Shown here piece after piece: positions 4,247-25,878 of a DNA stretch of 64,000 nucleotides. Under the pieces are notes generated by a model that was not told the origin of the DNA, did no database searches, and worked only from the letters and a program-made list of their open reading frames with translations. Within the stretch, counting starts at the first letter, position 1, and each line of letters begins with the position of its first letter. Made by a program: the position numbers and the translations under genes. Source of the stretch: Desulfofundulus kuznetsovii DSM 6115 (GTDB lineage: Bacteria; Bacillota; Desulfotomaculia; Desulfotomaculales; Desulfovirgulaceae); contig NC_015573.1 of assembly GCF_000214705.1 (NCBI RefSeq), positions 953,001 to 1,017,000 on the forward strand, given 5' to 3'.

Positions 4247-4273
4247 AAAAAGCCCCCGCTATTTGGCGGGGGC
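4247..4273 (-). terminator. intrinsic terminator of the minus-strand small-gene operon
   Basis: On the minus strand GCGGGGGC (4266-4273) pairs with GCCCCCGC (4252-4259), followed by a run of five T residues. The stop codon of the ribbon-helix-helix gene (4259-4261) lies inside the hairpin. Confidence 0.85.
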
Positions 4274-4426: not shown

Positions 4427-4427
4427 A

Positions 4428-7052: not shown

Positions 7053-7061
7053 TTTATACAC

Positions 7062-7616: not shown

Positions 7617-7620
7617 GAAT

Positions 7621-7671
7621 AAAGGCCCGTTTTACCCTTCCTGCTGGAAGGGAAACGGGCCTTTGTCATTT
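7621..7671 (+). terminator. intrinsic terminator after the TRGAYGFR-type gene
   Basis: AAAGGCCCGTTT (7621-7632) pairs with AAACGGGCCTTT (7653-7664), with an extra inner helix, followed by a T-rich tail. It separates the upstream gene from the MoxR operon. Confidence 0.8.
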
Positions 7672-7699
7672 AATTTTGATCGCAAAGGGGGATGCTTTC

Positions 7700-8617: not shown

Positions 8618-8620
8618 CCC

Positions 8621-10387: not shown

Positions 10388-11819
10388 CGCACTTACCCTG
10401 GAAAAGTCACTGTCCGGCTTCAGCCGGTTCCTGCGGCAGAACGACATGCCCGTAGCCGTTTCCGAAACCGTGGACGCGGTTAACGCCGTGCTGGCAGTCG
10501 GGCCGGTTACACTGGACGATTTCAGGGAAACGCTCGCCTGCTGTTTTGTGAAGAGCGCGGACAATATCTCCCGGTTCAACGACCTGTTCGACAAATATTT
10601 CCTGCGCCAGGACGTCCGGGAGTCTGCCGTTCTGGCTGCACTCGCCCTGCGCCAGGGCCTCTCTCCCGTCGACTTGCCCAGTGGCGCGGGCGGACAGTCG
10701 GATGACATGACAACGCTGCCGGAGCAGGACGGGAGTCCGACACCGCAGGGCTGGCGGAAAAACCTCGCGATGTTCGGTGAAATACCAGACTCCTTCCGGT
10801 TATTCCTGGAAGGCAGGCACCGGGACGCCACCCTGCGCTTGATTAAACAGCCGCTGACCATTTCGGTCCGCAAGTCCATCCCAAAAGCGGTTTTCAAAGC
10901 CGCTTCCCGGGGTTTGATTCGAAAGGACGATATGGAAGATGTCCTCAATGTTCTCAGAAATTTTGCGGAGCTGGCCCGGGAAGTGGAAAAATTGGCCGCT
11001 CTCAAACACCGGTCGGAACCGGTGTTCGGTCCCAGCGCGGTCACCCGTTCGCCGGCAGTCATCGGTGAATGCCCGCCGGACCTGCTAGATGCGAATATTG
11101 GTACGCGGCGGGAGGAGATGCGCCGGGTGCTGGACATGATCGCCCGCCAGATTTATACAGGTATGGCCAGACAGTTAGGTACTTCAAACTACAAGAAAGC
11201 TGTAGATTACAAGGCGACAATCAGGCAGAGTTTGAGGACGCTGGGCGAACCGTTCAGCGTGGTGAGGCGGGCCAGGAAGAGGCGCTTGCGCCGGCTGGTC
11301 ACAATCTGCGATGTTTCCGGTTCGGTCAAATATGCTACGGAGCTGCTGTTTTGCTTCATGTACGAGCTGCACCGGGCGTTTGAGGGCCGGGCGAGGCACT
11401 ATGTGTTTGTCAGCGCAGTCGACGACGTGACAGCCTATTTCGAGGAGCCGGACTTCGAGCGGTGTCTGGCCGGCATTTCCCGTGCAGGTATAGACTTCCG
11501 GGGATATTCCGACTACGGCGCGATGTTCAGGATGTTTGCTGAGGAATACGCATCGCACGTGGACAGCGACACGGTGGTGCTCGTCCTGGGCGACGCCCGG
11601 AACAACAGGCGTGCGGACGGCCGGGAGGTGCTGGCGGGGTTGAACGCCCGGGCGCGGGCGGTGATATGGCTGAACCCGGAAGACCCGGCCAAGTGGGACC
11701 GCGGGGACTCCATCATCGGCGTGTACCGCCGCTGCGTCAGCCGGGTGGTAGACATAAGCACGTTCGGCAACCTGCTAGGCTTCCTGACCGACCTGCCGAA
11801 GATGGTCTTAGCGAGATGA
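10380..11819 (+). CDS. vWA (CoxE-like) protein, system copy 1 (479 aa)
   Basis: The N-terminal 280 residues are helical, and a C-terminal von Willebrand A domain carries the MIDAS motif DVSGS near residue 311 and a second metal-site motif LGDARNN near 403. The sequence around them (RRLRRLVTICDVSGSVK) matches CoxE-type vWA proteins that work with MoxR/CoxD ATPases. Start ATG 10380 overlaps the stop of the partner gene, so the two are translationally coupled. The vWA domain would bind Mg and a client protein, with MoxR providing ATP-driven remodelling. A terminator follows at once. Confidence 0.88.
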   Translation: MINALTLEKSLSGFSRFLRQNDMPVAVSETVDAVNAVLAVGPVTLDDFRETLACCFVKSADNISRFNDLFDKYFLRQDVRESAVLAALALRQGLSPVDLPSGAGGQSDDMTTLPEQDGSPTPQGWRKNLAMFGEIPDSFRLFLEGRHRDATLRLIKQPLTISVRKSIPKAVFKAASRGLIRKDDMEDVLNVLRNFAELAREVEKLAALKHRSEPVFGPSAVTRSPAVIGECPPDLLDANIGTRREEMRRVLDMIARQIYTGMARQLGTSNYKKAVDYKATIRQSLRTLGEPFSVVRRARKRRLRRLVTICDVSGSVKYATELLFCFMYELHRAFEGRARHYVFVSAVDDVTAYFEEPDFERCLAGISRAGIDFRGYSDYGAMFRMFAEEYASHVDSDTVVLVLGDARNNRRADGREVLAGLNARARAVIWLNPEDPAKWDRGDSIIGVYRRCVSRVVDISTFGNLLGFLTDLPKMVLAR

Positions 11820-11916: not shown

Positions 11917-12114
11917 TTGTTTTTTGACAGTTGGTGTGGTAAAATTAAACTGTCGTATATTGATTTGATTGCCGGTACTTTTAAGATACCGGAGAAAGGC
12001 ATCCCTTTACAGGGTGCGGGTTACGGCTTCTTTTAAGGGGCCGGGAAGAGCAAAAAACACAAGACTAAAAGCCTCACTGTGCCTTTTTTCAGGGTGGTGG
12101 GGTTTTATTTTTTT
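11917..12114 (+). promoter_or_regulatory. promoter and attenuator leader, copy A
   Basis: A candidate promoter TTGTTT-N17-TAAAAT (11917-11945) starts a leader. It has hairpin 1 (CCGGTA 11972-11977 with TACCGG 11987-11992), hairpin 2 (12024-12030 with 12037-12043) and a terminator hairpin (12068-12076 with 12098-12106, then a T run). The next gene's SD is at 12118. The same layout recurs at 22188-22371 with compensatory base changes in hairpin 2 and the terminator. It fills most of the gene-free stretch 11820-12158. No known riboswitch class is recognised. Confidence 0.7.
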
Positions 12115-12117
12115 CGG

Positions 12118-12152
12118 AAAGGAGGAACGGGGCAGGCCAGGAAGGTCCGCCC
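12118..12152 (+). promoter_or_regulatory. SD-hairpin-AUG leader, copy 3
   Basis: SD aaaggagg is at 12118-12125, the stem is 12130-12138 with 12144-12152 (one A-C mismatch), and the ATG is at 12159. It lies directly behind the attenuator terminator. Confidence 0.75.
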
Positions 12153-12158
12153 TCCATT

Positions 12159-12794
12159 ATGAGTGCGCCATGGCTCCACGATGATAATGTCGTTATGATG
12201 GATTCTTACCAGTGGCACGCCTCTGTAAAGGAAGAGGTACTCGCCCAACGGACCCTATGCGTGTGTGGTCAAGAAGTTACCTTTGAGAAAGTACGGCGGT
12301 GGATCTTATATACATTCGCCGACGGTCGCTCGCCAGAAACCGGCTCAATTACAGAGGAGGTCAGGGTGCTCATCCCTACTTCCAGGGGTGTGGTCAGCCG
12401 TGTATGCTTTGCTCACCCTAAAATAGAAAAAAATGCCTTCCGGGTCGCTGATCTGGGTGACCCGGAAGTGCGGGAGGTATTAAAAAACCTGGGCGGTCAA
12501 GAAACTGCCAGGGGTCAGTGGAAGTTTTCTTACACTCTCAAAAAGGGGAAGTTTTTGGGGTTGTGTGAAGTATGCGGGAAAAGTATTTACGCAGGGGATT
12601 TGTACAGTTTGCTGCAGAAAGGATGTGCGTACTATTTCTTTTGTGTTTCCTGTTTTTCCCGCTGCGGCAGTCTGAAAAAGTGTATGCAAGAAGCCGATCG
12701 GCGAGCCCAAGAAGAAGCAGCACGTGAGGAAAAAGCTCGCAAGTGGGCTTCTTACGCAGATGACGACCTGGTACCTGAATGGTACCAGGATTAA
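12159..12794 (+). CDS. hypothetical Cys-rich protein (211 aa)
   Basis: No known family is recognised. Cysteine pairs appear in TLCVCGQEV (near residue 32) and in LCEVCGKSIYAGD (near 136) followed by FFCVSCFSRCG (near 165), a pattern typical of a zinc finger or treble-clef domain in the C-terminal half. The last 25 residues are a highly charged helix. The start follows hairpin leader copy 3 and the promoter/attenuator leader A, so transcription and translation may both be controlled. The next gene begins 36 bp downstream with its own ribosome site. Confidence 0.7.
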   Translation: MSAPWLHDDNVVMMDSYQWHASVKEEVLAQRTLCVCGQEVTFEKVRRWILYTFADGRSPETGSITEEVRVLIPTSRGVVSRVCFAHPKIEKNAFRVADLGDPEVREVLKNLGGQETARGQWKFSYTLKKGKFLGLCEVCGKSIYAGDLYSLLQKGCAYYFFCVSCFSRCGSLKKCMQEADRRAQEEAAREEKARKWASYADDDLVPEWYQD

Positions 12795-12830
12795 GTCAAA
12801 GAAAATCACCAAAAAAGGAGGCTTCACTAA

Positions 12831-13205
12831 ATGATCAAGGTGGTAGAAATCAAAGGTCGTCGTTTTGTAAATACTACCCCACATCAAATTAACCTGCGGG
12901 ACGAGGACGGCGTTGATCACGTTGTCCCGCCCAGCGGGGTGCTCATCAACGCCCGGGCGGTAGAAGAACCCGCTGGGGAGCGAGACGGAGTGCAGTTCGT
13001 CCGCACCCGTTTCGTGGCGGACGAAGAATCCGTGCGGGTGCTGGATGAGATCGAAGCCCTCTATCCCGGGGCATTTGTTGTCGGGAGCATAATCGCTGCC
13101 CAGGCCTTCCCGGGCCGGGTTCTGGCAATGATCCCCGTGCCGGGATTCGAAAGAGTGCCGCCCGCCGAAAAGCGCATGCGGGCGGACAAATTTACCGTGT
13201 TCTAA
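12831..13205 (+). CDS. phage-type conserved protein with NTTPHQINL motif (124 aa)
   Basis: The N-terminal pattern NTTPHQINLRDEDG followed by VPPSG matches a small family common in phage and archaeal virus genomes, recognised from memory and of unknown function. Length is typical. The ATG follows aaaaaaggagg at normal spacing and lacks the hairpin leader. It probably shares a transcript with the Cys-rich gene upstream and ends before a clear terminator. Confidence 0.7.
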   Translation: MIKVVEIKGRRFVNTTPHQINLRDEDGVDHVVPPSGVLINARAVEEPAGERDGVQFVRTRFVADEESVRVLDEIEALYPGAFVVGSIIAAQAFPGRVLAMIPVPGFERVPPAEKRMRADKFTVF

Positions 13206-13215
13206 GAGATGTAGA

Positions 13216-13245
13216 GGCAGCTCCCTTTTAAGGGGCTGCCTTTTG
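13216..13245 (+). terminator. intrinsic terminator with TTTTAA loop
   Basis: GGCAGCTCC pairs with GGGGCTGCC (13232-13240) around a loop containing TTTTAA, followed by TTTTGT. The same loop sequence occurs in both hairpins of the attenuator leaders. Confidence 0.85.
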
Positions 13246-13258
13246 TAATTTTCAGGGC

Positions 13259-13321
13259 GGCCCGGCCCGCCCAATCACCTGACAAGGAGGTGAAAAGGGG
13301 CGGGTTGTCGGGGGCCTGCCC
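13259..13321 (+). promoter_or_regulatory. SD-hairpin-AUG leader, copy 4, with upstream alternative arm
   Basis: SD is at 13284-13292, the stem is 13298-13306 with 13313-13321, and the ATG is at 13330. Here the stem's CC has become TT, still pairing as U-G. Upstream CGGCCCGCCC (13263-13272) can pair over 10 positions with the 5' arm. Confidence 0.8.
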
Positions 13322-13329
13322 TTACAAAC

Positions 13330-14271
13330 ATGGACGTTTATAAAAAAATGATAATCGACGAGGTAAAGAGTGCTATACAGAAGAGAGGGAAATACGTAAC
13401 TGTTGCACAGATGTTTGCAAGTGTTGCACTTAACCTGAGAAAGAAAGGTATACGAATAAGAGGAAAAAAGGCTGGAGGAATGGACACAATAAGAAAGATA
13501 TGGCATGATTATTGTTTAAAAGATCGCTACTGGGCACATACATACTCAAAAATTGTGACAGAAGCAAAAACTTTTGTTGGCTTACATAACGACCCGGAAG
13601 TGTTGGTCTTAAAAGAGCGCGTAAGGGAGATGCTAGCACCACTGAAGAATATTACTACGGAAGATATATTAGTAGCTATTGTTGAAACAGGACTTTCCGA
13701 AAAGGTTATTGCGAAAATAAGGAAAGAACTGCGCAGGACAAAAAGCAATGCAGAAACGTGCGATCGACATGATTCTGAAGACAGTTTTGGTAAAGCCGCC
13801 ACGACCATAGAAAAAGAGATCCGGTATCTAAAGGAAAAAGTCCAACACTTAGAAGCCAATATGTTGTTTATCAGGGAAACAGTTCAAGACATTTCTATTG
13901 CGACAACAGGATTAGAAACTTACAAAGCAATTGTGGACGTAATCCAGCAACAGCAAGTGTTCAGGCGCCTTGAGGAACTGGAGGAAAAATTCAAAGAAGT
14001 GGACTATTTTAATAAAAAATTCAGTCAACTGGAAGAAATTCTTCCGGGTATTATCAACAAGAGCAACCAAATAGACGAAGTATCAGCACGCCTTGCTGCA
14101 CTGGAACAAGCGTATGAGAAGGTATCCGGCGCCCTTAACGGAGTAGAGGTTGTTGTCCGGGAACTGCACAGGGTATGGAGTCAAAACAGAACTTCTTCTG
14201 ACAGGCCGGTCAGGTGTCTGTCGGTGCACAAGGACGATACGTCACCGTTTCACAATGCGGGGATGATCTGA
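13330..14271 (+). CDS. coiled-coil hypothetical protein (313 aa)
   Basis: The DNA is much more AT-rich than its neighbours, which suggests separate acquisition. The N-terminal half is basic (KKMIIDEVKSAIQKRGKYV, then GIRIRGKKAGG) and may form a small DNA-binding fold. The C-terminal half (about 155-285) is a long coiled coil (EKEIRYLKEKVQHLEANM, LEELEEKFKEVDYFNKKF). The last 30 codons switch to higher GC and may derive from the next region. The start follows hairpin leader copy 4. Function unknown; the layout would suit a structural or partner-binding protein. Confidence 0.65.
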   Translation: MDVYKKMIIDEVKSAIQKRGKYVTVAQMFASVALNLRKKGIRIRGKKAGGMDTIRKIWHDYCLKDRYWAHTYSKIVTEAKTFVGLHNDPEVLVLKERVREMLAPLKNITTEDILVAIVETGLSEKVIAKIRKELRRTKSNAETCDRHDSEDSFGKAATTIEKEIRYLKEKVQHLEANMLFIRETVQDISIATTGLETYKAIVDVIQQQQVFRRLEELEEKFKEVDYFNKKFSQLEEILPGIINKSNQIDEVSARLAALEQAYEKVSGALNGVEVVVRELHRVWSQNRTSSDRPVRCLSVHKDDTSPFHNAGMI

Positions 14272-14349
14272 ATTGTTGGATAGAGTTTTTCACGGTAATG
14301 GCCATGTGGAGCAAGGCCGCGAGGCCGGTAAAAACTCTTCCGGAAAGAG

Positions 14350-14383
14350 AGGTGGAGAGGGCGGATGTTATACCGGACCGCCC
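14350..14383 (+). promoter_or_regulatory. SD-hairpin-AUG leader, copy 5 (divergent)
   Basis: GAGAGGTGGAGA is followed by GGGCGG (14359-14364) pairing with CCGCCC (14378-14383), and the ATG is at 14394. The loop is longer (13 nt) than in other copies, but the order SD, GC hairpin, AUG is kept. Confidence 0.65.
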
Positions 14384-14393
14384 TTTTCTCATT

Positions 14394-15746
14394 ATGTTTG
14401 AACAGCTCAAACTTTTCCAGGAGCGCGTAAAGACCAACATATCTTCCGAATACGTAAAGTCGTGGGGGGTCGTGGAGGCCCTGCGCGAAATTGTCCAGGA
14501 GAACCTGGACGCAAGGAAGAAGTACTCCTGCCGGGGCAGGGTGTTCTGGAAGAAAGGGTTTCTGGTTGCCGAAGATAACGGGCCTGGGTTGAGGCGGCAG
14601 GACCTGGCTCTAGGGAATTCCGGCAAGCGCGGGCACGGCGAGTTAATCGGCCAGTTTGGGGAAGGGCTGAAGCTGGCCGCGCTGGTCGCTGCCCGGGAAG
14701 GACGGAAGATGTATATTGAGACGGCAGGTTTTACCGCCGTACCGGTGCTGGAGTACGAGCCGGCGCTGGAGTGCCAGGTACTCGTTTTCGTTTTGGAGGA
14801 AAACGACAGGGTTATCGGAACGAAGATCTGTATTGAAGCCACAAAGGAGGAAAGCGATGCGGCTTTAGGCTTGTTCCTGGAGTTCAGCGCGGTCAGGAAA
14901 ATATCCGACAGGATATATCTCCCTGGCGGGCGGGTGTACGTCAACGGAGCGCTGGCGGCAGAGAGGAAGGACATGCTTTTCAGCTACGACCTGACCGGGG
15001 AGAACATCAGGGCGGCGCAGAGCCGGGACAGGACAGTGGTGGACGATGACGCGCTGCTGGAAGAAGTGAGCAAGGTACTCAGCACTTGCAGGAAGCAGAA
15101 AGTTATCGAAACGCTTTTCAGGATCGTGGAGAAGAAGGAAGCGAAGGCGTACCTTGAGGGCAGGGCACACCTTGAACCTCCGAATGGCGACCTGGTGGTG
15201 TGGAAGAAGGCGATGAGGGAAGTTTTTGGTCCGAGGGTGTGTTTGGCAAGCGACCCCGTTTACGACCTGGAGGCCAGGGAGAAAGGGTTTGTAGTCCTCA
15301 ACAGCGTTCCCTGGCGGTGGGAAGGTTGCTTCAGGCGGCTGGGTGCAAAGTTCAGCTATGATATTGCAGCCAGAACCAGGAAGCCGAGGGGAAGAGTTGC
15401 CTTAAAAGACCTGTCCCGGGAAGAAAGCCGGAACCTCCGGTGGGCGAAGAAAATAACCAGAGAAGTTTTTGGTGGAAAACTTCCGAAAATAATGATCGTC
15501 TCCGAAATTCCTCCGGACGGTGAAGAGAGAGTAAGAGGCTGTTACGACCACAGGGGCGTAATCTACCTGCTGCGGGACGTGCTGACAGTTCCTGAAGAAG
15601 TTCTGGGGACCCTGGTGCATGAGATGGTGCACCACGTAACCGATGCACCCGACTGCACGCGGGGATTCGAGCGCGGCTGGCAGGAAGTAGTCGTAAAGGT
15701 ACTTCTTAGGATGTACGGATTGCCGGAGGTAGAAAAAACGGCGTAA
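14394..15746 (+). CDS. GHKL (HSP90-like) ATPase fused to a zinc metalloprotease (450 aa)
   Basis: The N-terminal domain has the GHKL ATP-binding boxes in order: N box EALREIVQENLDARK (near residue 28), G1 EDNGPGL (near 60) and G2 GQFGEGLK (near 86). The C-terminal part has LVHEMVHH near residue 407, an HExxH zinc-protease site, with further acidic and His residues after it. An ATP-driven conformational switch tied to a protease suggests regulated cleavage of a substrate, perhaps triggered by DNA or infection; this is inferred. The start at 14394 is chosen by the leader hairpin, and an upstream extension to 14214 has poor composition. Both activities appear to keep their key residues. Confidence 0.8.
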   Translation: MFEQLKLFQERVKTNISSEYVKSWGVVEALREIVQENLDARKKYSCRGRVFWKKGFLVAEDNGPGLRRQDLALGNSGKRGHGELIGQFGEGLKLAALVAAREGRKMYIETAGFTAVPVLEYEPALECQVLVFVLEENDRVIGTKICIEATKEESDAALGLFLEFSAVRKISDRIYLPGGRVYVNGALAAERKDMLFSYDLTGENIRAAQSRDRTVVDDDALLEEVSKVLSTCRKQKVIETLFRIVEKKEAKAYLEGRAHLEPPNGDLVVWKKAMREVFGPRVCLASDPVYDLEAREKGFVVLNSVPWRWEGCFRRLGAKFSYDIAARTRKPRGRVALKDLSREESRNLRWAKKITREVFGGKLPKIMIVSEIPPDGEERVRGCYDHRGVIYLLRDVLTVPEEVLGTLVHEMVHHVTDAPDCTRGFERGWQEVVVKVLLRMYGLPEVEKTA

Positions 15747-15758
15747 GATATCTAGGCG

Positions 15759-15821
15759 GCCCGGCCCGCTTAACTTACCAAACCAAGGAGGTGAGAAGGG
15801 CGGGCCGCCGGGGGCCTGCCC
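15759..15821 (+). promoter_or_regulatory. SD-hairpin-AUG leader, copy 6
   Basis: SD is at 15785-15793, the stem is 15798-15806 with 15813-15821 around the loop GCCGGG, and the ATG is at 15829. Upstream CGGCCCGC (about 15761-15768) can pair with the 5' arm. Confidence 0.8.
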
Positions 15822-15828
15822 CAAAGAA

Positions 15829-16422
15829 ATGGGATGGACCTGTACCAACAAGCCAAAAGGAATGAGCATCAGGGAATTTTTCGAGAGAGAGTTTAACTAC
15901 ACCAGGGACGACGGCAGGTATGGGAAAATCCTGGACTGCGCCGTAGTAAACCTGCGCACAGCTTATATTGCTTATGAGATAGGCGATGTGCAGGGGAAAC
16001 GGGAGGTAACTGCTATCGTTTGCGCCCTGAGCTTTAGCCCCAACAGTTACTACAACTTTTGTTATAAAGACATGAGCGAATCGATGGGACCGTATTACTA
16101 TGACTGCCCGGAACGCATACTGAAAATGCTCACTCCTACTGATCACGAGTGGGCCAGGGAATGGCGTGAAAAGTGCTGGGAACGCATCCGGGCAAAGAAG
16201 ACCCGTCCGAAGCTAAAAAGAGGGATGATCATTAAATTCGCCGATTCAATTGTGTTTAAGAGTAGGCGGCAGGAAGACACGTTCAGGGTGGAGGACCCGC
16301 GGCGGTTGATATTCTCTGACAGGTGGGGGAAGCGGTACAAACTCCGCCGGGACACTTTGGACTGGGAATTCCAGGTGCTCGAAGACTTTCCACCTGAGCG
16401 AGAAATTGCTGTTTCCGTATAG
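15829..16422 (+). CDS. conserved MGWT-type hypothetical protein (197 aa)
   Basis: The N-terminus MGWTCTNKPKGMSIREFFERE resembles a family seen on plasmids and phages (recognised from memory, function unknown). The C-terminal part reads like a small beta-barrel (GMIIKFADSIVFKSRRQEDTF). The protein is soluble and basic. The ATG lies after hairpin leader copy 6. No terminator is obvious before the next gene, but a GCCGGG hairpin lies in the 80-bp gap. Confidence 0.65.
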   Translation: MGWTCTNKPKGMSIREFFEREFNYTRDDGRYGKILDCAVVNLRTAYIAYEIGDVQGKREVTAIVCALSFSPNSYYNFCYKDMSESMGPYYYDCPERILKMLTPTDHEWAREWREKCWERIRAKKTRPKLKRGMIIKFADSIVFKSRRQEDTFRVEDPRRLIFSDRWGKRYKLRRDTLDWEFQVLEDFPPEREIAVSV

Positions 16423-16502
16423 CGATAGAGTGAAAGCGGCCCGGCAAGAGCGCCGGGTCATAACATTTGAAGGAAAGTTTCAAAGAAAGGAGACAGAAGA
16501 GC

Positions 16503-16886
16503 ATGTATTTTCCAATTTTACGTACTATAAGTCGCTACAAGATTGACGATTTGTTATATAAAAAACTTGATGTCTGGCTTGGAACAAGAAGAAAAGCAAC
16601 AAGAAATTTTTTAAGCCCTTTACAATTTAGCATAGATAGTGGGATAGATGAAGATACTGCCATGTTATTATTTGCAATTTGCACACAGCCTGACATAAAT
16701 TTACTAAAAGTAAGATATATGGTTGAATGCCCATATTGTTACCGCAAACTAGCAATTTTCAACAATCCTATGGAAATTCCTGAGCAAGTTTATTGTCCTG
16801 AAGATGAGGCAGATATACCTGTAAAAAAAGATAATATAGTAATATGGTTTGAATTATTAAGTGAACCGCAGGATCAACCAATTTAA
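16503..16886 (+). CDS. AT-rich hypothetical protein with zinc ribbon (127 aa)
   Basis: Start ATG 16503 follows AAAGGAGACAGAAGAGC; an upstream in-frame extension is unlikely. The N-terminal two thirds read as a helical or winged-helix domain (LDVWLGTRRKATRNFLSPLQ). The C-terminal part has ECPYCYRKL and YCPED, a CxxC...C zinc-ribbon-like cluster near residues 82-103. Base composition is markedly AT-rich against its neighbours, a sign of transfer. It precedes a small Cys gene and a phosphatase. Function unknown; the layout resembles small regulatory partners in defence loci, but this is a guess. Confidence 0.65.
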   Translation: MYFPILRTISRYKIDDLLYKKLDVWLGTRRKATRNFLSPLQFSIDSGIDEDTAMLLFAICTQPDINLLKVRYMVECPYCYRKLAIFNNPMEIPEQVYCPEDEADIPVKKDNIVIWFELLSEPQDQPI

Positions 16887-16923
16887 TTCGCAGATTTCCC
16901 CGGTTATCGGAGGTGGGGTAGAA

Positions 16924-17139
16924 GTGGAACCTAGAAAACTTTCTATCGAAAAATTCTCCTGCTGTTCTCTCTGGCAGGAATGCGAGAAAGCAGGCCGCTG
17001 TGTTCAGGAAGGAAATAGCGTCATTTCCCGGGAACAATATCTGGAAAACTGTACGCTGGCGCAGCGGTACCGGAGGGGAAAAAGGCAATCAACCTCCGAA
17101 AAACAGACGTTAATCCATGAGCAGTTAAGGTTGTTTTAA
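16924..17139 (+). CDS. small Cys-rich protein (71 aa)
   Basis: GTG 16924 follows GGAGGTGGGG. The protein has five cysteines in its first half (SCCSLWQECEKAGRC) and a sixth in YLENC, which suggests a metal site or disulfides, and a basic tail. It lies 37 bp after the AT-rich gene and 22 bp before the phosphatase, all in one direction, so the three may be one transcript. No family recognised. Confidence 0.55.
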   Translation: MEPRKLSIEKFSCCSLWQECEKAGRCVQEGNSVISREQYLENCTLAQRYRRGKRQSTSEKQTLIHEQLRLF

Positions 17140-17161
17140 CATCAAAGAAAGGATGGAATAA

Positions 17162-17812
17162 ATGTCAAGAATTCTGGTTGTCGGCGATGTCCACGGCTGC
17201 CGCCACCTGTTGGAAGCAGTCCTGCACCGAGCAGGCTACAACCCTGATCGGGACCGGCTGATTCTATTGGGGGACTATATCGATCGTGGCCCGGACAGCA
17301 AGGGGACGCTGGAATTGGTTCGGAGTTTGGTGAATAACGGTGCCGTTGCCCTCCGCGGCAACCACGAGCAGATGCTCCTGGACGCCATCAGGAACCCGGA
17401 CCCGGTAAATGAATTGGGAACGTGGTTGAACAACGGCGGTAGGGCAACGTTGAATAGTTTTGGGACTTACTCTGTAAAATTGCTAGCTAGATGGCGGGAT
17501 TTTCTGGAAAGTTTACCGTTGATCCACCAAGAAGAAGAATATATTTTTGTACACGCCGGGGTATTTCCGGGCAGGGAACTGCAGACCGACATCGACCTGC
17601 TCTGGATTCGGGAGCGTTTTCTTTTTTATCCCGGAGCACCGGTACCTGGTCATGTAGTAGTCTTTGGCCACACGATGACTACGATTATTCCCGGCCACGA
17701 ATGCGCCAGGCCCTGGTTTGCGCCGGGGCGCATTGGAATTGACACCGGTGCGTTCAAAACGGGCATTTTAACATGCCTGCAGTTACCCTGTCACTACTGG
17801 CAGACAGGGTGA
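17162..17812 (+). CDS. calcineurin-like metallophosphatase, PrpE/ApaH type (216 aa)
   Basis: The motifs VVGDVHGCRHLL (near residue 6), LLGDYIDRGPDSKG (near 37) and RGNHEQMLL (near 65), with downstream His residues (VHAGVFPG, FGHTMTT), are those of metal-dependent serine/threonine or diadenosine-tetraphosphate phosphatases. Length is typical, and all metal ligands seem present. Phages often carry such phosphatases. It lies just before MoxR operon 2 with a 58-bp gap and its own ribosome site (AAAGGATGG). Whether it serves that operon is not known. Confidence 0.85.
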   Translation: MSRILVVGDVHGCRHLLEAVLHRAGYNPDRDRLILLGDYIDRGPDSKGTLELVRSLVNNGAVALRGNHEQMLLDAIRNPDPVNELGTWLNNGGRATLNSFGTYSVKLLARWRDFLESLPLIHQEEEYIFVHAGVFPGRELQTDIDLLWIRERFLFYPGAPVPGHVVVFGHTMTTIIPGHECARPWFAPGRIGIDTGAFKTGILTCLQLPCHYWQTG

Positions 17813-17870
17813 CTGTCGGCAGGGCAGAAAACACAATCGGGGTAAATACTTTTTCCAAGGAGGGTTTTTT

Positions 17871-18803
17871 ATGAACGCTGCCGAATGGCAAAAAGAACTC
17901 GAAAGAGTATCATATGTACCGGCCAGGGAGATCTGCGCCGTCCTCTCCCTGGCTGAAGTACTCAAGAAACCTGTGCTTGTCGAGGGTCCGCCCGGTGCCG
18001 GCAAAACCTATCTGGCGAAAGCGGCGGCCAGGGTGCTGGGTGCAAAACTCGTACGTCTGCAGTGCTACGAGGGAATCGACGTCAGCAGAGCAGTCTACGA
18101 GTACAACTACGGCAAACAACTCTTGTATTTGAACGCTCTTCGTGACCGGGTGGCGCAGGTACTGAACGGCACGAAGAGCCTGGGGGAAGCCGTAAGCATT
18201 CTCGACCGGGAAGCCCCCTTTTGGGGTGAAGAATTTCTGGTACGCAGGCCGGTTCTGGAAGCGTTGGCTCCCGGGGATGGGGTGCCGCGCGTTCTGCTTG
18301 TCGACGAGGTAGACCGCGCCGACAGGGAATTTGAAGCCCTGTTGCTGGAGGCCCTCTCCGACTGGGCAATATCTATTCCCGAATACGGAACGGTAATTGC
18401 AGAAAAGGAACCCCTAACCATACTTACTTCCAACAGGACGAGAGACCTGTCTGACGCCCTCCGCCGCAGGTGTCTCTATCTATGGCTGGATCTGCCCGAC
18501 AGGAACAGAGAGGCCAAAATCATCGAAGCACAGGTACCCGGTGCGAGCAGAGAATTTGCCCGTAAGGTGGCCTGTTTCATGGAAGAATACCGGAGGATGT
18601 CGCCGAAACACACACCATCAGTAGCGGAAGCGGTAGAACTGGCCCTGGCGCTCCTGACTACCGCCGGTGAAGAATTCAGTGTCGAGGATATTGAGTCGGC
18701 TTTACCCGTTTTCGCGAAAAACAGGGACGACGTAAAGCTCGGCGTGCGTGCAGCGGAAAAAACACTCAAAAGGGCCGAAGGGGGCGCGGGAAGTGCTGAG
18801 TAG
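17871..18803 (+). CDS. MoxR-family AAA+ ATPase, system copy 2 (310 aa)
   Basis: This is a close paralogue of the ATPase at 7700: Walker A EGPPGAGKT near residue 38, LQCYEGIDVSRAVYEYNY near 62, and Walker B LLVDEVDR near 141, with long shared blocks. The ATG follows aaggagggtttttt. Here the order is MoxR, vWA, partner, while copy 1 is MoxR, partner, vWA. Its stop overlaps the vWA start by 11 bp, so the ATPase and vWA proteins are probably made in matched amounts. It most likely remodels a client presented by the vWA protein. Confidence 0.9.
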   Translation: MNAAEWQKELERVSYVPAREICAVLSLAEVLKKPVLVEGPPGAGKTYLAKAAARVLGAKLVRLQCYEGIDVSRAVYEYNYGKQLLYLNALRDRVAQVLNGTKSLGEAVSILDREAPFWGEEFLVRRPVLEALAPGDGVPRVLLVDEVDRADREFEALLLEALSDWAISIPEYGTVIAEKEPLTILTSNRTRDLSDALRRRCLYLWLDLPDRNREAKIIEAQVPGASREFARKVACFMEEYRRMSPKHTPSVAEAVELALALLTTAGEEFSVEDIESALPVFAKNRDDVKLGVRAAEKTLKRAEGGAGSAE

Positions 18804-20295
18804 TGATACGCTCCTGCGTTCCCTGACGGGTTTCGTAGAATACGTAAGAAAGAAAGGGTTACAGGTGAGCCCCGCCGAAGCCGCAGACGCGGTACAGGCT
18901 GTGCAGGTACTTGCACCCCTTTCCCTGTCCAACCTGCGCGAAGTTCTCCGGCCCTGTATGGTTAAAAGCGTCGCCGGTTTTAAAAAGTTCGACGACGCCT
19001 TTGACGAATACTTCCTGGATGACAAAAAACCTGTAGTGGTCGCCGTGACCGCCCTGGCCTCTTTAGAGGCCGGGGGGTCCGGTCGGAAAAAAGGAAAGAA
19101 ATGGTCTAGAGGTGCATCCGGTAGTACAGATGAGGATACGGACGGACACCGCACGGAACAACCGGTACCTGGCAGGCATGTAGGATGGAAAGAATCTCTG
19201 GTAAAACTGGAAGATGGAACCCGGCTTCCCGAATCGTTCAGGTTGTTCATGGCCGGTGAAAAATTTTCCGCTGCGGCGGAGCTGGCGCGAAACCCACTGA
19301 CAGATGCAGACCGGAAGGCAATCACTGCAGTCCTGGGCAGGCTGGCCGTATACGGTGAACTGACTGGGGAGGACCTGCCTGCCGTAACTGAAATGCTCAG
19401 AGAATACGTTGAACTGGGTAAGGCAGTGGAGAAATCGCGTTCTCAAATTTCCAGTAAGAGAGACGTTTCCGACAGGAGAATAGAAACCGGGGAATACCGT
19501 CCACATATTCATGCACCTGTCGTTCGGGTAGACAGTATCCCGCCGGATCTGCTCAACGCCAGGCTGGAGAAGCTGGACAGGAAACGTCTTGCCCTGTTGA
19601 CCGCGGAAATAGAGCGGGCGGCGGCTGCCCTGAAGCCGTTTTTTGCCCGGACACCCGGCCCGGCCAGCAGGAAAAAGGCGCTTGACTACAGGAAAACCCT
19701 GCACGGTAGCCTGGCCACGTTCTGCGAGCCGTTTAAATTGTTCTACAGCGCAAAAAGGCGCAAACTGCGCAGAGTGGTCACTGTTTGCGACCTGTCCGGG
19801 TCGGTTAAAAACGTGACCGGTTTGTACCTGGCGTTCATGTACGGCCTGCATCAGGCATTTGAAGGCCGGGCAAGGCATTTTGTGTTCGTATCCGAAATTG
19901 ACGAAGTTACGCCGTACTTCAGCCTGAACTCTTACGAAGAATGTTTCGACAGGGTAACCCGCGCCGCAGCGGTGGACTACAGGGGTTTCTCCAATTACGG
20001 GAAGATGCTCAGGAAACTCTTCGATAAATATCGTGACGCTTTCGACCACGAGACCGTAGTAATGTTCCTGGGCGATGCCCGGACAAACAAGTACGACCCG
20101 GAAGCGGACATTATGGCACAAATTTCTGCTATGGTTAAGAAACTCTTTTTCCTCAACCCGGAAGACCCGAGGGAGTGGCACACCGGCGACTCAGCTGTAG
20201 CCGCGTATAAAAAAGCGGCTGAATTTGTGGACGTGAGCAGGTTCGGCAGGTTACTGGACTTCCTGGGAAAACTGCCCGGGGTGGTGGTGGGATGA
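18793..20295 (+). CDS. vWA (CoxE-like) protein, system copy 2 (500 aa)
   Basis: The C-terminal vWA domain has CDLSGSVKN near residue 331 as MIDAS and FLGDARTNKYD near 425. The block RRVVTVCDLSGSV and the following MYGLHQAFEGRARHFVFVSE align directly with copy 1. The N-terminal half is helical and less conserved. GTG 18793, inside the end of the MoxR gene and behind AAGGGGGCG, aligns with the copy-1 start. It is followed by a long hairpin and then the partner gene. Confidence 0.88.
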   Translation: MLSSDTLLRSLTGFVEYVRKKGLQVSPAEAADAVQAVQVLAPLSLSNLREVLRPCMVKSVAGFKKFDDAFDEYFLDDKKPVVVAVTALASLEAGGSGRKKGKKWSRGASGSTDEDTDGHRTEQPVPGRHVGWKESLVKLEDGTRLPESFRLFMAGEKFSAAAELARNPLTDADRKAITAVLGRLAVYGELTGEDLPAVTEMLREYVELGKAVEKSRSQISSKRDVSDRRIETGEYRPHIHAPVVRVDSIPPDLLNARLEKLDRKRLALLTAEIERAAAALKPFFARTPGPASRKKALDYRKTLHGSLATFCEPFKLFYSAKRRKLRRVVTVCDLSGSVKNVTGLYLAFMYGLHQAFEGRARHFVFVSEIDEVTPYFSLNSYEECFDRVTRAAAVDYRGFSNYGKMLRKLFDKYRDAFDHETVVMFLGDARTNKYDPEADIMAQISAMVKKLFFLNPEDPREWHTGDSAVAAYKKAAEFVDVSRFGRLLDFLGKLPGVVVG

Positions 20296-20296
20296 T

Positions 20297-20360
20297 ACCT
20301 GCCTGACGGTCACCGCACCCGCCCCTCTGAAGGAGGCAGGTTCCCAGGCCGCATTTTTTT
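20297..20360 (+). promoter_or_regulatory. hairpin between vWA and partner genes, copy 2
   Basis: ACCTGCCT (20297-20304) pairs with AGGCAGGT (20334-20341), with a T run at 20354-20360. The T run is 12 nt from the stem, so this is a weak terminator at best. It could lower expression of the partner relative to the two upstream genes. Confidence 0.45.
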
Positions 20361-20377
20361 CTATGGGGGTGAAAATT

Positions 20378-22123
20378 TTGAATAAAAGCGACTCACAGTG
20401 GGTGCGGGAAATCTTCCGCCGAGTCATGGAACAAAAAGGTTGTGTCCCCCGGCAGCAGAAAAGCTTTGAGCGGATCAGGGTGTCCAAGAAGGGACACGTT
20501 CTCCTGGACAATAGCATGATTCTCAGCAACTCCTTCCTGAAACGAGAAGGAGCTTTAACGGAGAATGGCATGGAAAAGCTGCTTTCCACGCTTTTACCTG
20601 CTGCTGTGGAAAAGATAAAGGACGCCCTGGACAGTCCTCCCAACCGCTGTCCGTTGCCGGCACTGAATGCATGCGACTTTGCGGCTGAAACGGAACCGGG
20701 GGAAGAACCTCCCGCCCTTCTTCTTGAGAAGTTTGCTGAATACCACCGGGATTACTCTGCACGGCTCCGCAAGTTCACCGGTAAAGTTTTCGACGGCCTT
20801 GCCCCGTTTCCTGAATTTGAGTCCGAATCTGTCGCGGCAAGGGCCGGTTGTGTTGTTTCGCCGGAGACTTTTTCTGTCGTCAGGAGGCGTGACGGGCGGT
20901 GGGTGCTCACGTGCGGGCGGTGCGGTTTGATTGCCGTATTTCCGTCTATAGAGGCGGGAAAACCGCAACCCGACCAAATAGGTACGAACATCGACAAGGA
21001 CATGCAGATCATAACCCTTTATGCAGCATCTGCCTGGTCAAAATATCTCTACGAGGACGGCATAATCAACGAAGCGGAGCGGTGCGCAAAAGAAGCGGAG
21101 GAGAAGCTGGCCGGTCACATATATTCTAAAGAACTGGCCGCGAAACTGCATGAACTCAAGACTATAGCCGGAAATTTAAAGCGTGGTGAGTTAACCTTAT
21201 ACGGTGATTCGCTGGCTGTCCCTGGTCCCAAACCACCCGTTCCCGTACGTGCAGTGGGAGAATACCTTGCATCTGTTCTTACGGAAATCAATGCTGGGCA
21301 GAAGATGTCAGTCGAAGAAGTCCGGCATGTTCTTTGTCAAACGTGGGGAGAATCGGGAAAGGAACTGTGGGAGAAAGCACAAAACAAGTGGGCCGGACTG
21401 CCTGCACTTTACCGGCTCCTTCCCGCCGCTAGGCGGGCGTACGAAAGGCTTTCAGCCTTCGCCGGGGCGTGGGAGCAGGGGAAAATAAAAGTAATAGGAG
21501 GCGTCCTGCACCTGGGGGGAGAATCTTTTGCAACTCCCGATGGGCAGACCGCTCTTTCCATCCTGGAACACCACTTTCGTCAGTTTGAAGACAGTTTGAC
21601 CGGGCGGGAACTGCTGGGCGATATTGAAACTATCAAGAAAGTGCTGCAGTATATAGCGGATAACCAGGGTGAGGTGGGAGTAACAACTGCGGTTGCCGTT
21701 TTAACCGGGAGCAGGGCGAGCAAAATAATGCAGAAAGGGTACGACAAATCGCCCTATTACGGTATACTCCGAGGACAGTATACGCAACAGAAGCTTGCTG
21801 AACTTGTCAATCGTCTGGTCAGGGAAGGTTTGCTGACGGTCAAATACATTGGTTACTACGAATTGCCTGTACTGCATGTACCAAAGGCGGTCCAGAAGGC
21901 GCTGGGCGAACTCGAAAAAGGCGTCTCGACGGAAGAGAAAAAAGATCGCCTGTGCCGGATGATAGATACCGCTGTCAAGAACAGGTCGTGGGAAGAACTC
22001 GGTAGCATGGTCAGGGAAGGGGAATTTGCTGCAGAGGTGGTCTTGGTAGCAGCCTCTATCTTCTGGCCTACCGGCAAGGCTGCAAAAGTTCTGACCGAGG
22101 TTCGGAAAACTGTTCCTGCATGA
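20378..22123 (+). CDS. winged-helix / zinc partner of the MoxR-vWA system, copy 2 (581 aa)
   Basis: Like the copy-1 partner (8621), it has a Cys-x22-CxxC block (LTCGRCGLIAVF near residue 185) and an RQC-like winged helix at about 411-505: TAVAVLTGSRASKI, then YDKSPYYGILRGQYT and LPVLHVPKAV. The GSR-x(n)-YGI spacing is close to the RQC domain of RecQ proteins, with no helicase motifs present. The C-terminus IFWPTGKAAKVLTEV parallels copy 1. TTG 20378 is preferred (site GGGGGTG), though an ATG at 20363 is possible. The likely role is target recognition for the MoxR-vWA pair. Confidence 0.75.
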   Translation: MNKSDSQWVREIFRRVMEQKGCVPRQQKSFERIRVSKKGHVLLDNSMILSNSFLKREGALTENGMEKLLSTLLPAAVEKIKDALDSPPNRCPLPALNACDFAAETEPGEEPPALLLEKFAEYHRDYSARLRKFTGKVFDGLAPFPEFESESVAARAGCVVSPETFSVVRRRDGRWVLTCGRCGLIAVFPSIEAGKPQPDQIGTNIDKDMQIITLYAASAWSKYLYEDGIINEAERCAKEAEEKLAGHIYSKELAAKLHELKTIAGNLKRGELTLYGDSLAVPGPKPPVPVRAVGEYLASVLTEINAGQKMSVEEVRHVLCQTWGESGKELWEKAQNKWAGLPALYRLLPAARRAYERLSAFAGAWEQGKIKVIGGVLHLGGESFATPDGQTALSILEHHFRQFEDSLTGRELLGDIETIKKVLQYIADNQGEVGVTTAVAVLTGSRASKIMQKGYDKSPYYGILRGQYTQQKLAELVNRLVREGLLTVKYIGYYELPVLHVPKAVQKALGELEKGVSTEEKKDRLCRMIDTAVKNRSWEELGSMVREGEFAAEVVLVAASIFWPTGKAAKVLTEVRKTVPA

Positions 22124-22149
22124 AAGCCGGAGATTTTCCGGCTTTTTTT
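22123..22149 (+). terminator. terminator of MoxR-vWA operon 2
   Basis: AAAGCCGG (22123-22130) pairs with CCGGCTTT (22138-22145), followed by a T run. Confidence 0.88.
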
Positions 22150-22187
22150 GTTTAAGGACGAAATTTGGCCGTCCTTAACTCAGCGAC

Positions 22188-22371
22188 TTGTTTTTTAATA
22201 ACTGGTGTGGTAAAATTAAGTTGTCGTATATTAATTCGATTGCCGGTACTTTTAAGATACCGGAAGAAAGGTGTTCTCTTTACGGCTTCTTTTAAGAGGC
22301 CGGGGAAAGTAAAAAACACGGGACCAAAAGCCTCACTGTGCCTTTTTCAGCCGGGTGGGGCTTTATTTTTT
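22188..22371 (+). promoter_or_regulatory. promoter and attenuator leader, copy B
   Basis: This repeats leader A: TTGTTT-N17-TAAAAT (22188-22216), hairpin 1 (22243-22248 with 22258-22263), hairpin 2 (22283-22289 with 22296-22302) and a terminator hairpin (22327-22335 with 22356-22364) ending in a T run. In hairpin 2 a U-G of copy A becomes U-A, and in the terminator a G-U becomes G-C, so the pairing is kept while the sequence drifts. Confidence 0.7.
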
Positions 22372-22372: not shown

Positions 22373-22409
22373 AGAAAGGAGGGATGGGACGGGCCGGGAA
22401 GGTCCGCCC
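22373..22409 (+). promoter_or_regulatory. SD-hairpin-AUG leader, copy 7
   Basis: SD agaaaggaggg is followed by a stem of 22386-22395 with 22401-22409 (one bulged A), and the start codon is at 22420. It sits just behind the terminator of attenuator B. Confidence 0.75.
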
Positions 22410-22419
22410 CCAAAAAGCT

Positions 22420-22725
22420 ATGATTTGCTGTCCAAAGTGCTTCACTCGGGAAAATGTCCGTTATATCTCCAGAGTCCCACATTTTATTTTTGGATCCGGT
22501 TTGAAAGCTACAGAGTTGCCGTTGTATAGGTGCGTCAACTGCGGTCATATATTTGTGAGTGAGGACACTAAATTTTTTCTTTGCAAAAGTTTGGGTGACG
22601 AAGAAGCTCGATTCTGTATAAAGCGTCACATTGAACTGCTAAATGAAGATCTTAAACGCTGGAAGAGAGAAATCGAAGAGATAAATAGAACTATGGCGTC
22701 TAATATGATCACCTGTAGGCGCTGA
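22420..22725 (+). CDS. zinc-ribbon protein with C-terminal helix (101 aa)
   Basis: The N-terminus MICCPKCFTRENV and a second pair YRCVNCGHIFVSE near residue 38 form a four-cysteine zinc ribbon. A charged helix follows (LNEDLKRWKREIEEIN). The start is set at ATG 22420, behind hairpin leader copy 7. An in-frame ATG right at the SD would add only the hairpin-encoded residues and is too close to the SD. It is one of two genes placed behind the duplicated attenuator; the other (12159) is also Cys-rich. Function unknown. Confidence 0.65.
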   Translation: MICCPKCFTRENVRYISRVPHFIFGSGLKATELPLYRCVNCGHIFVSEDTKFFLCKSLGDEEARFCIKRHIELLNEDLKRWKREIEEINRTMASNMITCRR

Positions 22726-22744: not shown

Positions 22745-22796
22745 CCAAACCATTTCCACGAAAGGGAGGGAATGGGGCGGGCCGGATGGTCCGCCC
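22745..22796 (+). promoter_or_regulatory. SD-hairpin-AUG leader, copy 8
   Basis: SD aaagggaggg is followed by the stem 22775-22783 with 22788-22796, and the ATG is at 22805. Upstream CCATTTCC can also pair with GGGAATGG just behind the SD, placing the SD in a loop. Confidence 0.78.
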
Positions 22797-22804
22797 CGCA
22801 ATTC

Positions 22805-23029
22805 ATGATAACGGTGAAGGATATTATCAAGAAATACCCACGCGGCACGAAAATCGATGTCTGGGTGCGCAACTGGGGCGGCCCTTCCTACCTGGGCAGG
22901 TTTGCCGTCGAAGCCCGGACGCTCCGGCACGTCGAATCCGGGTTGAAGTGGGGAGAACTGGCGAAAGACGTCACCCGTGATAACCACGGGATGAGGTTAA
23001 TAATCGTAAGGGTGAAGAAGGTAAATTAA
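22805..23029 (+). CDS. small hypothetical protein (74 aa)
   Basis: The protein reads MITVKDIIKKYPRGTKIDV and continues with a beta-rich, basic sequence ending in IIVRVKKVN, suggesting a small soluble fold. ATG 22805 is chosen because it follows hairpin leader copy 8. It is flanked by other single genes with the same leader and has no clear operon partner. No family recognised. Confidence 0.55.
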   Translation: MITVKDIIKKYPRGTKIDVWVRNWGGPSYLGRFAVEARTLRHVESGLKWGELAKDVTRDNHGMRLIIVRVKKVN

Positions 23030-23051: not shown

Positions 23052-23095
23052 CCATTCCAGAAAGGAGGAATGGGGCGGGCCGGGAGGGTCCGCCC
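23052..23095 (+). promoter_or_regulatory. SD-hairpin-AUG leader, copy 9
   Basis: SD aaaggagg (23061-23068) is followed by the stem 23073-23081 with 23087-23095 around GGGAG, and the ATG is at 23104. Upstream CCATTCC can pair with GGAATGG and enclose the SD. Confidence 0.8.
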
Positions 23096-23103
23096 TGGAA
23101 ACC

Positions 23104-24071
23104 ATGAGAAATCTTGAAGCAGCCCTCAAGTTCCGGTATAATACTGGGAGAAAGGGTGTTAAGCGAGTGGACGGGATTAACCGGACCAACGACTATGTTT
23201 TTAAGCGTATCTTTGGTTCTGAAGAAGGTAAGGAAGCCCTGCTGGGATTCCTCAATGCGGTGTTCAAACTACCGCCCGGCAGAGAACTGACCGACCTGGA
23301 GTTGCTGGACAGGGAAATCGACCCGGAATACCTTCTCGACAGGGCCGCCCGGCTGGACGTACTGGCGAAGGCGGCTGACGGGTCGCTGATCAACGTCGAG
23401 ATACAGATTGCCAACAGGTTCGACATCGACAAGCGGACACGTTCTACTGGGCGCGGCTGTACGGCGGCCAGTTAAAATCCGGCCAGCAGTTTTCGGAACT
23501 GCGGAGGACAGTCGCTATCAACATCCTGGCCTTCGACTGGTTTGCCGACGAGCGGTACCACCACGTCTTTCGTATCCGGGACATCGAGACCGGGGAACCG
23601 ATGAACGACCACCTGGAAATCCACTTTCTGGAGCTGAACAAGGTGCGGAGGCGCGAGTGGGACCCGGACGACCCGCTGGAAGCGTGGCTGATGTACCTGA
23701 ACAACCTGGAAGGGGAGGGGTTGAGGGTGATCGCGGAAAAGAACCCGGCGATCAAGAAGGCCCTGACCGTCGAAGAAGTTTTCAGGAAGAGCGAACTGGA
23801 GCGCCGCCTGTATGAGTTGCGGGAAAAGGCCATCCGGGACGAAATCTCCATGGTGGCGGGCGCGAAAGCAGAAGGTAGAGCGGAAGGTATGGCTATCAAA
23901 GCCCAGGACGCCATTATCCGTTATCTGAGGAAAAAGTTCAAGGTCGACTGCGAAGATAAAATACGGCAGGTCAGGGACGTTGAAACCCTTGACGGGCTTT
24001 TCGACAGCCTGCTTGATGCCGGGACTTTGGAAGAGGCTGAGGAAGTTATAGCCCGTGTGCTGCCGCAGTAA
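23104..24071 (+). pseudogene. Rpn-family PD-(D/E)XK nuclease/transposase-like protein, frameshifted
   Basis: The first frame (23104-23475) has the family start (NRTNDYVFKRIFGSEEGKE) and catalytic-type strand residues INVEIQIANRFD near residue 98. Near 23440 the frame breaks. The next frame continues the protein (FYWARLYGGQLKSG, then INILAFDWFADERYHHVF) and runs to 24071 with the usual helical C-terminus. One inserted base joins them into about 322 aa, the normal length. Rpn proteins are PD-(D/E)XK nucleases that promote recombination. The gene lies behind hairpin leader copy 9. A shortened second copy is at 25501-25731. Confidence 0.8.
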
Positions 24072-24150: not shown

Positions 24151-24205
24151 CCGGCCCAAACCATTCCAAAAGGGAGGGAATGGGGCGGGCCGGTAGGGTC
24201 CGCCC
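24151..24205 (+). promoter_or_regulatory. SD-hairpin-AUG leader, copy 10
   Basis: SD aaagggaggg is followed by the stem 24183-24191 with 24197-24205, and the ATG is at 24214. CCATTCC upstream can pair with GGAATGG behind the SD. Confidence 0.8.
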
Positions 24206-24213
24206 CGTATACG

Positions 24214-25064
24214 ATGACACTCACCGACAGAGCGAGAGAAGCCTTGAACCGTCTTTTAGAAATGTTTCGCACCGGAGACCTGCCCGCTGCCGTAGCCCGG
24301 ACGGTCATCCGGGCGAAGACCGGGTACGAGAGGCCGTCCGACAGGTGGAGCCTGGGCAACCGGCTGCTTATGTACCTGGCCGGTACGGAGGACGCCAGGG
24401 GCTACAGGCAGTGGGAAGAAGTAGGGCGACACGTCAAGAAAGGCGCTAAGGCATTCTATATCCTGGCCCCGACCACCAGAAAGAAAACGGTTAAGGAGCG
24501 GGAAGTGGACCCGGAGACCGGCGAAGAGCGGGAAGTGGAGCGGGAGCGCACGGTTATTACCGGCTTCCGGTGTGTCCCGGTGTTCCGGTACGAGGACACG
24601 GAGGGTGAACCCCTGCCGGAAGCGGACTATAACCCGCCGGAGCCGCCGCCCCTGTTCGACGTGGCCAGGCGATTCGCGGGTGACGTGAAATACAAGCCCT
24701 TCGTAGGAAGGTACTACGGCTATTTCAGCCCCGCCAGGGACGAGATAGTTCTGAGTACCCACGATGCGCGCACACCTTCTTTCACGAACTGGCCCACGCC
24801 GTCCATCACCAGGTGAAGCCGGGCGGGTTGAAACCGGGCCAGCACGCGGACCAGGAAATCGTGGCCGAGACCGTGGCTGCCGCCCTGTGCGAGATGTACG
24901 GCTTTTCCGGGTACATCTGGCACGGATGGGAGTATATTCGGCATTACGCCGGTCAGGACGACCGGAAGGCCCTGAAGGCCGTCATGGGCGTTCTGGCGGA
25001 CGTGGAAAAGGTGCTGGACGTTATCCTGGGCGCGGCAGAAGAAAGGAACAAGAAGGTTGCGTAA
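24214..25064 (+). pseudogene. ArdC-like antirestriction/zincin protein, frameshifted
   Basis: The N-terminal part has the ArdC-type ssDNA-binding pattern (NRLLMYLAGTEDARGYRQWEE, then HVKKGAKAFYILAP). The C-terminal part carries FFHELAHAVHH, an HExxH zinc-protease site, in a frame that ends at 25064. The first frame runs from ATG 24214 to 24816, and the break lies near 24768; one base change gives a protein of about 283 aa. Proteins of this layout are carried by mobile elements and protect incoming DNA or cleave host proteins (family knowledge). The gene follows hairpin leader copy 10. Confidence 0.72.
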
Positions 25065-25812: not shown

Positions 25813-25871
25813 CCGGCCCGCCAAAATTCCCACGGGAAGGAGGAAACGGGGCGGGCCGGGATGGTCCGCCC
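25813..25871 (+). promoter_or_regulatory. SD-hairpin-AUG leader, copy 11, with strong alternative arm
   Basis: SD gaaggagg (25836-25843) is followed by the stem 25849-25857 with 25863-25871, and the ATG is at 25879. CCGGCCCGCC (25813-25822) is a perfect 10-bp complement of 25850-25859, the 5' arm, so the two folds exclude each other. Confidence 0.82.
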
Positions 25872-25878
25872 CTCATAC

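Follow-up and report, generated by a model that had tools for sequence, protein, structure and literature searches.

Why would a mobile genetic element carry the same promoter, the same pair of small RNA hairpins, and the same terminator more than once? The question is raised by a stretch of 64,000 nucleotides, hereafter called the window, from the genome of Desulfofundulus kuznetsovii DSM 6115 (assembly GCF_000214705.1, contig NC_015573.1, positions 953,001 to 1,017,000, forward strand), which overlaps an integrated conjugation-type element. Two leaders in the window share this layout. They belong to an RNA motif that recurs, at orthologous positions and with conserved stems and spacing, in related elements, and those elements encode a paralogue of the transcription elongation factor NusG. 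We give about an even chance to the reading that the hairpins recruit the element's NusG paralogue for processive antitermination, first at the leader terminator and then at terminators further along.

A recurring leader RNA

The two leaders in the window consist of the following features.

11917-11945, + strand: promoter of leader copy 1, TTGTTT (11917-11922), a 17-nucleotide spacer, and TAAAAT (11940-11945), with TG ahead of the -10 element; read from the sequence, layout as in copy 2
11972-11992, + strand: hairpin 1 of copy 1, CCGGUA-CUUUUAAG-A-UACCGG
12024-12043, + strand: hairpin 2 of copy 1, CGGCUUCU-UUUA-AGGGGCCG
12068-12113, + strand: intrinsic terminator of copy 1
12116-12152, + strand: Shine-Dalgarno (SD) sequence, then a hairpin ahead of the start codon, copy 1; a sequence feature, member of repeat family D2
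12159-12794, + strand: first gene past leader 1, a Cys-containing protein of 211 amino acids (aa) that matches no Pfam family
22188-22216, + strand: promoter of leader copy 2, TTGTTT (22188-22193), a 17-nucleotide spacer, and TAAAAT (22211-22216)
22243-22263, + strand: hairpin 1 of copy 2
22283-22302, + strand: hairpin 2 of copy 2, CGGCUUCU-UUUA-AGAGGCCG
22327-22371, + strand: intrinsic terminator of copy 2
22374-22409, + strand: SD sequence, then a hairpin ahead of the start codon, copy 2
22420-22725, + strand: first gene past leader 2, a Cys-rich protein of 101 aa with weak zinc-ribbon matches under cut-off

The copies have the hairpin apex C-UUUYAA-G in common, and hairpin 1 adds a bulged A beneath it. 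A 26-nucleotide pattern for hairpin 1, allowing at most three mismatches, matches copies 1 and 2 only within the window and never in 100 shuffles. The terminator tract directly abuts the SD sequence of the first gene in both copies and therefore leaves no space for a second promoter.

A preliminary description of this DNA had reported two leaders with a common promoter, two hairpins, and a terminator, each placed after a MoxR operon and before a Cys gene with an SD hairpin. The coordinates of both copies bear out the layout, and the context also holds: a MoxR AAA, VWA, and RQC-domain operon lies upstream of each copy and a Cys-containing open reading frame (ORF) downstream. The pair-preserving drift described there (U-G to U-A in hairpin 2, G-U to G-C in the terminator) is real, but it is one-sided between copies 1 and 2; pairs changed on both sides appear only in comparison with distant relatives. 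No known riboswitch family had been recognised, and a scan against the families of Rfam 15, riboswitches included, indeed gave no match at gathering score. A further candidate, the inverted repeat GACAGTT..AACTGTC around the -10 element, is seemingly compensatory between copies 1 and 2. We rejected it as chance: it is absent from copy 3 and straddles the promoter.

More copies exist both outside the window and in related elements, as the comparative search proposed in the preliminary description revealed. A whole-genome search located a third, near-identical copy 366 bp upstream of the window (G000:C1:952633-952767, where G000 is the window's genome, G002 is Desulfofundulus australicus, and other G numbers are genomes of relatives). 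Copy 3 has the promoter TTGCCT-17-TATAAT and lies past a sliding-clamp gene and ahead of a short Cys-rich ORF. A covariance model built on five leader copies (R1) recovered two divergent copies in G000 at 937193 and 948307, upstream of the window, along with orthologues in G002. The E-values of the RNA models are rough by design. The strongest R1 matches fall in G000, G002, G035, and G097, all four of them among the nine genomes that carry the NusG paralogue, and same-genus genomes without the paralogue gave no R1 match. Weak R1 matches also turned up in genomes beyond those nine. Searches of the regions around the paralogues yielded two arrays in G035, four in G097, and two in G051, as well as two in G058 (three hairpins each) and two in G081 (two hairpins each), the G058 and G081 arrays being reached with a model of hairpin 1 alone in regions picked for carrying the paralogue. 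The second G051 array, found with the hairpin type of the G051 leader, lies 13 kb from the first; its stems show compensatory changes, and it has a terminator and an SD sequence of its own. In all, there are 17 distinct leaders, G002 orthologues not counted, and they come from six lineages within a single family of integrated conjugation-type elements. G000, G035, G058, G081, G097, and G051 each have one array downstream of a 231-aa ORF, and the position is therefore orthologous. Viral contigs gave no match to exact or gapped DNA patterns or to the NusG protein, and plasmid and phage collections gave none to the leader by blastn. A two-apex pattern run across the order returned mainly unpaired stretches and was dropped.

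A repeated unit common to the leaders, UU(R)-hairpin-N4-AAG, is present in two to three copies per leader; this consensus was read from instances picked by their similar hairpins, and its information content is descriptive and not a test. Units start 34-41 nucleotides apart in 15 of the 17 leaders and 51-52 nucleotides apart in the remaining two, and arrays span 60-120 nucleotides. In Desulfofundulus, hairpin 1 reads CCGG-NN-C-UUUNAA-G-R-NN-CCGG; G035, G058, and G097 have closely similar versions. Across lineages the apices include C-UUUYAA-G, CCC-GGA-GGG, and GUGC-NNNA-GCGC. Both stems carry compensatory changes, and RNAalifold, run on the leader alignment (A7), recovers both hairpins independently, with six pairs changed on both sides. 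For hairpin 1, 94.8% of cells are paired, versus 17-39% when slid; for hairpin 2, 93.2% are paired, and cells changed on both sides number 11 versus 2.8 when shuffled. Two types can be distinguished: type A has a promoter, hairpins, and a terminator, and type B has hairpins that adjoin an SD sequence, with no terminator.

Several observations accompany the leaders. Another hairpin lies upstream of type B leaders (L017 8240-8310; L055 3330-3380; L056 ~4440-4510, minus strand; L058 ~3600-3650, minus strand), with AUGGAG next in three of the four. Many genes of the element have a G+C-rich hairpin between SD sequence and start codon (window 7014-7054, 12124-12164, 13283-13323, 15783-15823, 22381-22421, 22768-22808, 23067-23107, 24177-24217, and 25843-25883), and the G035 and G097 elements have hairpin leaders of like kind with different stem sequences. 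As sequence, a putative translation-level SD hairpin is present, stacked on the transcription leader. In D. australicus, a TnpB-like insertion sequence apparently lies between a leader terminator and the next gene's SD sequence (L018, G002:C54, ~2560-4450, minus strand), where it would part leader from operon. HEARO RNAs, as classified by Rfam, flank the leader in the G058 element (L104 18489-18698 and 19761-19980), and another occurs in the G081 element (L115 2775-3015, minus strand).

An element-encoded NusG paralogue

What could act on these hairpins? The element encodes, outside the window, a 163-aa NusG-family protein, P0001 (G000:C1:931164-931655). Its NGN domain matches PF02357 (E 1.4e-9; 38.8 bits, above the cut-off of 22.2), and the protein matches NusG structures in the PDB, with its KOW region aligned to them. 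It scores 44.5 bits against the LoaP model NF033641, under the cut-off of 125, and likewise under cut-off against RfaH models. Of the order's 113 genomes, nine contain strong relatives; when 398 genomes sampled evenly across the phylum were searched, matches came from only three, all among those nine. All six leader lineages encode such a specialised paralogue. In a tree that also holds eight housekeeping NusG sequences, the nine element paralogues group together in a separate clade (100/100). One subclade (94/93) comprises G000, G002, G097, G058, and G035, all with hairpins of the CCGG/CCAG-C-UUY type. The G081 and G051 paralogues fall in two other subclades, and there the hairpin types differ. 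That hairpin type tracks paralogue subclade fits co-evolution.

LoaP supplies a precedent: this NusG paralogue is recruited by binding a hairpin in the leader and brings about read-through (PMC12691694). NusG paralogues are the known class of trans-acting factor for long operons. The proposal is that each leader forms the 5' end of an operon of the integrated element. RNA polymerase would start at the leader promoter and transcribe two, or in some relatives three, small hairpins with like flanks. The element-encoded paralogue would recognise these hairpins, board the elongation complex, and enable polymerase to read through the leader terminator and subsequent intrinsic terminators. Stray transcripts, and transcription in cells lacking the factor, would stop at the leader terminator; thus, in this proposal, operon expression would depend on the element's own factor. 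Type B copies may re-load the factor within long operons. Past the 937193 leader, three more terminator-like sites lie on the same strand within ~3.5 kb. Tentatively, at a little under an even chance, we further propose that, in mobile elements of this order, two to three evenly spaced hairpins load the element-encoded paralogue, that the hairpin code co-evolves in each lineage to yield orthogonal antitermination pairs, and that the system represents a second class of RNA-guided NusG paralogue.

Several points weigh against assigning the hairpins to the paralogue. The order of promoter, hairpins, and terminator, the conserved pairing of the stems, their spacing, the recurrence at orthologous places, and the presence of the paralogue are established. 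RNA binding by the paralogue, antitermination, and the part played by type B copies we infer, the link to NusG coming from co-occurrence and from what is known of NusG. All features of a single element occur together, and therefore the tie to NusG specifically rests on that biology; similarly, the elements' whole history is common to all of their genes, and so the co-evolution pattern fails to single out NusG. Indeed, the double-S1 protein and the 231-aa protein are also common to most of these elements. Two genomes, G028 and G060 (72% complete), have the paralogue, and no array was found in their searchable sequence. Conversely, a relative of the 231-aa ORF is present in G025, G063, G074, and G084, whose only NusG is the housekeeping one; in G025, G084, and G074, hairpins and terminators with no obvious repeated unit lie downstream of that ORF. 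Housekeeping NusG could itself be the hairpin partner. In a catalogue of 14 copies, nine are type A, and the five of type B have no terminator. Finally, the hairpin-1 model gave 35 bits inside an apparent spo0B-type coding sequence (L137 ~1334-1361, G111:C72) in a genome where no NusG paralogue was detected. This match is probably a chance false positive; with at least one such case, weak matches were not counted.

Competing explanations

The hairpins might instead act on RNA polymerase directly, as a cis-acting RNA antiterminator like HK022 put, EAR, or Tn916 canT, with no need for the paralogue. We consider this unlikely. Two adjacent hairpins do resemble put in outline, which counts in favour of the idea. 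Gram-positive conjugative elements are, moreover, known to use antiterminators made of RNA alone: canT works processively and in cis and needs no other gene of Tn916 (PMC11658703). Active canT fragments, however, measure 341-452 nucleotides (PMC11658703), far more than the arrays here. Stems and loops also vary by lineage in step with the NusG subclade, a hint of a trans-acting partner that changes alongside them.

That partner might be a different RNA-binding protein, whether the double-S1 protein, the 231-aa protein encoded beside one leader, or a host protein, with the hairpins as its binding site and termination or the fate of the mRNA under its control. The S1 and 231-aa proteins are kept in most of the same elements, and type B copies adjoin ribosome-binding sites in the absence of a terminator, both in favour of this idea. 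S1 domains, however, usually bind single-stranded RNA with low specificity, which counts against the S1 version, and the type A order of promoter, hairpins, and terminator points to transcription elongation, the territory of NusG. We judge this explanation as improbable as the preceding one.

Still less probable is a small RNA gene or plain terminator, in which the promoter yields a short stable RNA and transcription of the genes beyond comes from other promoters or from basal read-through. The promoter-RNA-terminator unit is self-contained, as this idea requires, but copies 1 and 2 offer no room for another promoter between terminator and SD sequence, and recurrence at operon starts and copies with no terminator fit a small RNA gene poorly.

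The preliminary description had also suggested a transcription switch. What is supported is a conserved transcription-control leader of no known Rfam class; a ligand-type switch is not, given the absence of a competing helix in the copies folded, the mobile-element genes downstream, and the type B copies. Specifically, in thermodynamic folds of the full-length RNAs of copies 1-3, no alternative helix sequesters the 5' arm of the terminator. For copies 2 and 3, both hairpins are predicted to form alongside the terminator, with probabilities of ~0.8-1.0 per pair. The predicted fold of copy 1 favours pairing of hairpin 1 with hairpin 2; hairpins that form first as the RNA is made could nonetheless be local folds. 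Thus, modelling of three copies does not support a classical riboswitch or attenuator with a mutually exclusive antiterminator, and because the terminator meets no competing fold, the leader is better explained by a trans-acting antitermination factor that the element encodes than by a ligand switch. A ligand-sensing riboswitch or classical attenuator has the slightest chance of the four alternatives: a conserved leader with a terminator whose 5' arm is invariant in five copies, and the possible pairing of the two copy 1 hairpins with each other, speak for it, but its core would be two small similar hairpins that coexist with the terminator, no conserved antiterminator helix competes, the genes are those of a mobile element, and Rfam offers no match.

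The element and systems like it

The genes downstream of the leaders are mobile-element genes and form no metabolic pathway. The element encodes a CD1115-family VirD4/TraG coupling protein, a DnaN-like clamp, SSB, a CHC2/DUF3854 protein, an actin-like protein, MoxR/VWA systems, the double-S1 protein (L052:15718-16191), and a large serine recombinase. A gene for a VirB4-like ATPase is located at 868 kb. Because the genome yielded no PF03432 relaxase, we call the element conjugation-type rather than conjugative. Other features are these.

5834-5974: 11-bp repeat array (ATCGGAAAGNN) within an ORF
7610-11819 and 17871-22123: two diverged MoxR, VWA, and RQC-domain sets; a third pair, MoxR with a CobT-type VWA protein (L017 2029-5936), lies in the element's conserved core
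23229-23382/25503-25656, 23991-24109/25651-25769, and 24104-24157/25765-25818: a duplicated gene piece with a terminator-like tail, apparently broken
33213-34919, + strand: the large serine recombinase (Resolvase, Recombinase, and zinc ribbon), close to the element's right end
54268-54544: 21- and 33-nucleotide tandem repeats in a coiled-coil-like ORF

How do the leaders compare with known systems? ANTAR dual-hexaloop RNAs likewise have two tandem hairpins with six-nucleotide loops ahead of a terminator. ANTAR target hexaloops have A at position 1 and G at position 4, whereas the loops here read UUUYAA, and the terminator is separate from hairpin 2. As in the present case, LoaP and the dfn/mln leader of Bacillus velezensis combine a NusG paralogue with a hairpin that lies, in the leaders of long operons, after the promoter and before the intrinsic terminator (PMC12691694). 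The dfn leader, however, has a single UNCG-type hairpin, rather than two to three tandem units with other apices, and LoaP serves an antibiotic cluster rather than a mobile element; among the 36 listed hairpins here, no UNCG loop of the LoaP-target kind was found. RfaH is also a NusG paralogue, and it acts on conjugation operons of F-like plasmids, but its ops target is an element of the non-template DNA, GGGCGGTAGCGT (PMC8955417). Allowing at most two mismatches, ops matches the window 15 times versus 17.9 expected by chance, and none of the matches lies inside the leaders. Finally, conAn of pLS20 and canT of Tn916 also act by processive antitermination where the conjugation operons of Gram-positive elements begin. 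They are set apart by description: conAn consists of the protein ConAn1 and the RNA conAn2, canT is an RNA of ~450 nucleotides acting alone, and neither description includes a NusG paralogue (PMC8955417, PMC11658703). In the open-licence literature, we found no description of a NusG paralogue paired with hairpin arrays on a Gram-positive conjugative element.

If the paralogue binds the hairpins, this would be a second, independent case of a hairpin-binding NusG paralogue, with arrays replacing the single hairpin. Several diverged protein-hairpin pairs would then be at hand for studying how specificity evolves, and they would be candidate orthogonal antiterminators for synthetic operons. It would then also follow that conjugation-type elements in this order, whose members are anaerobes and mostly sulfate reducers, possess an antitermination system different from both conAn and canT.

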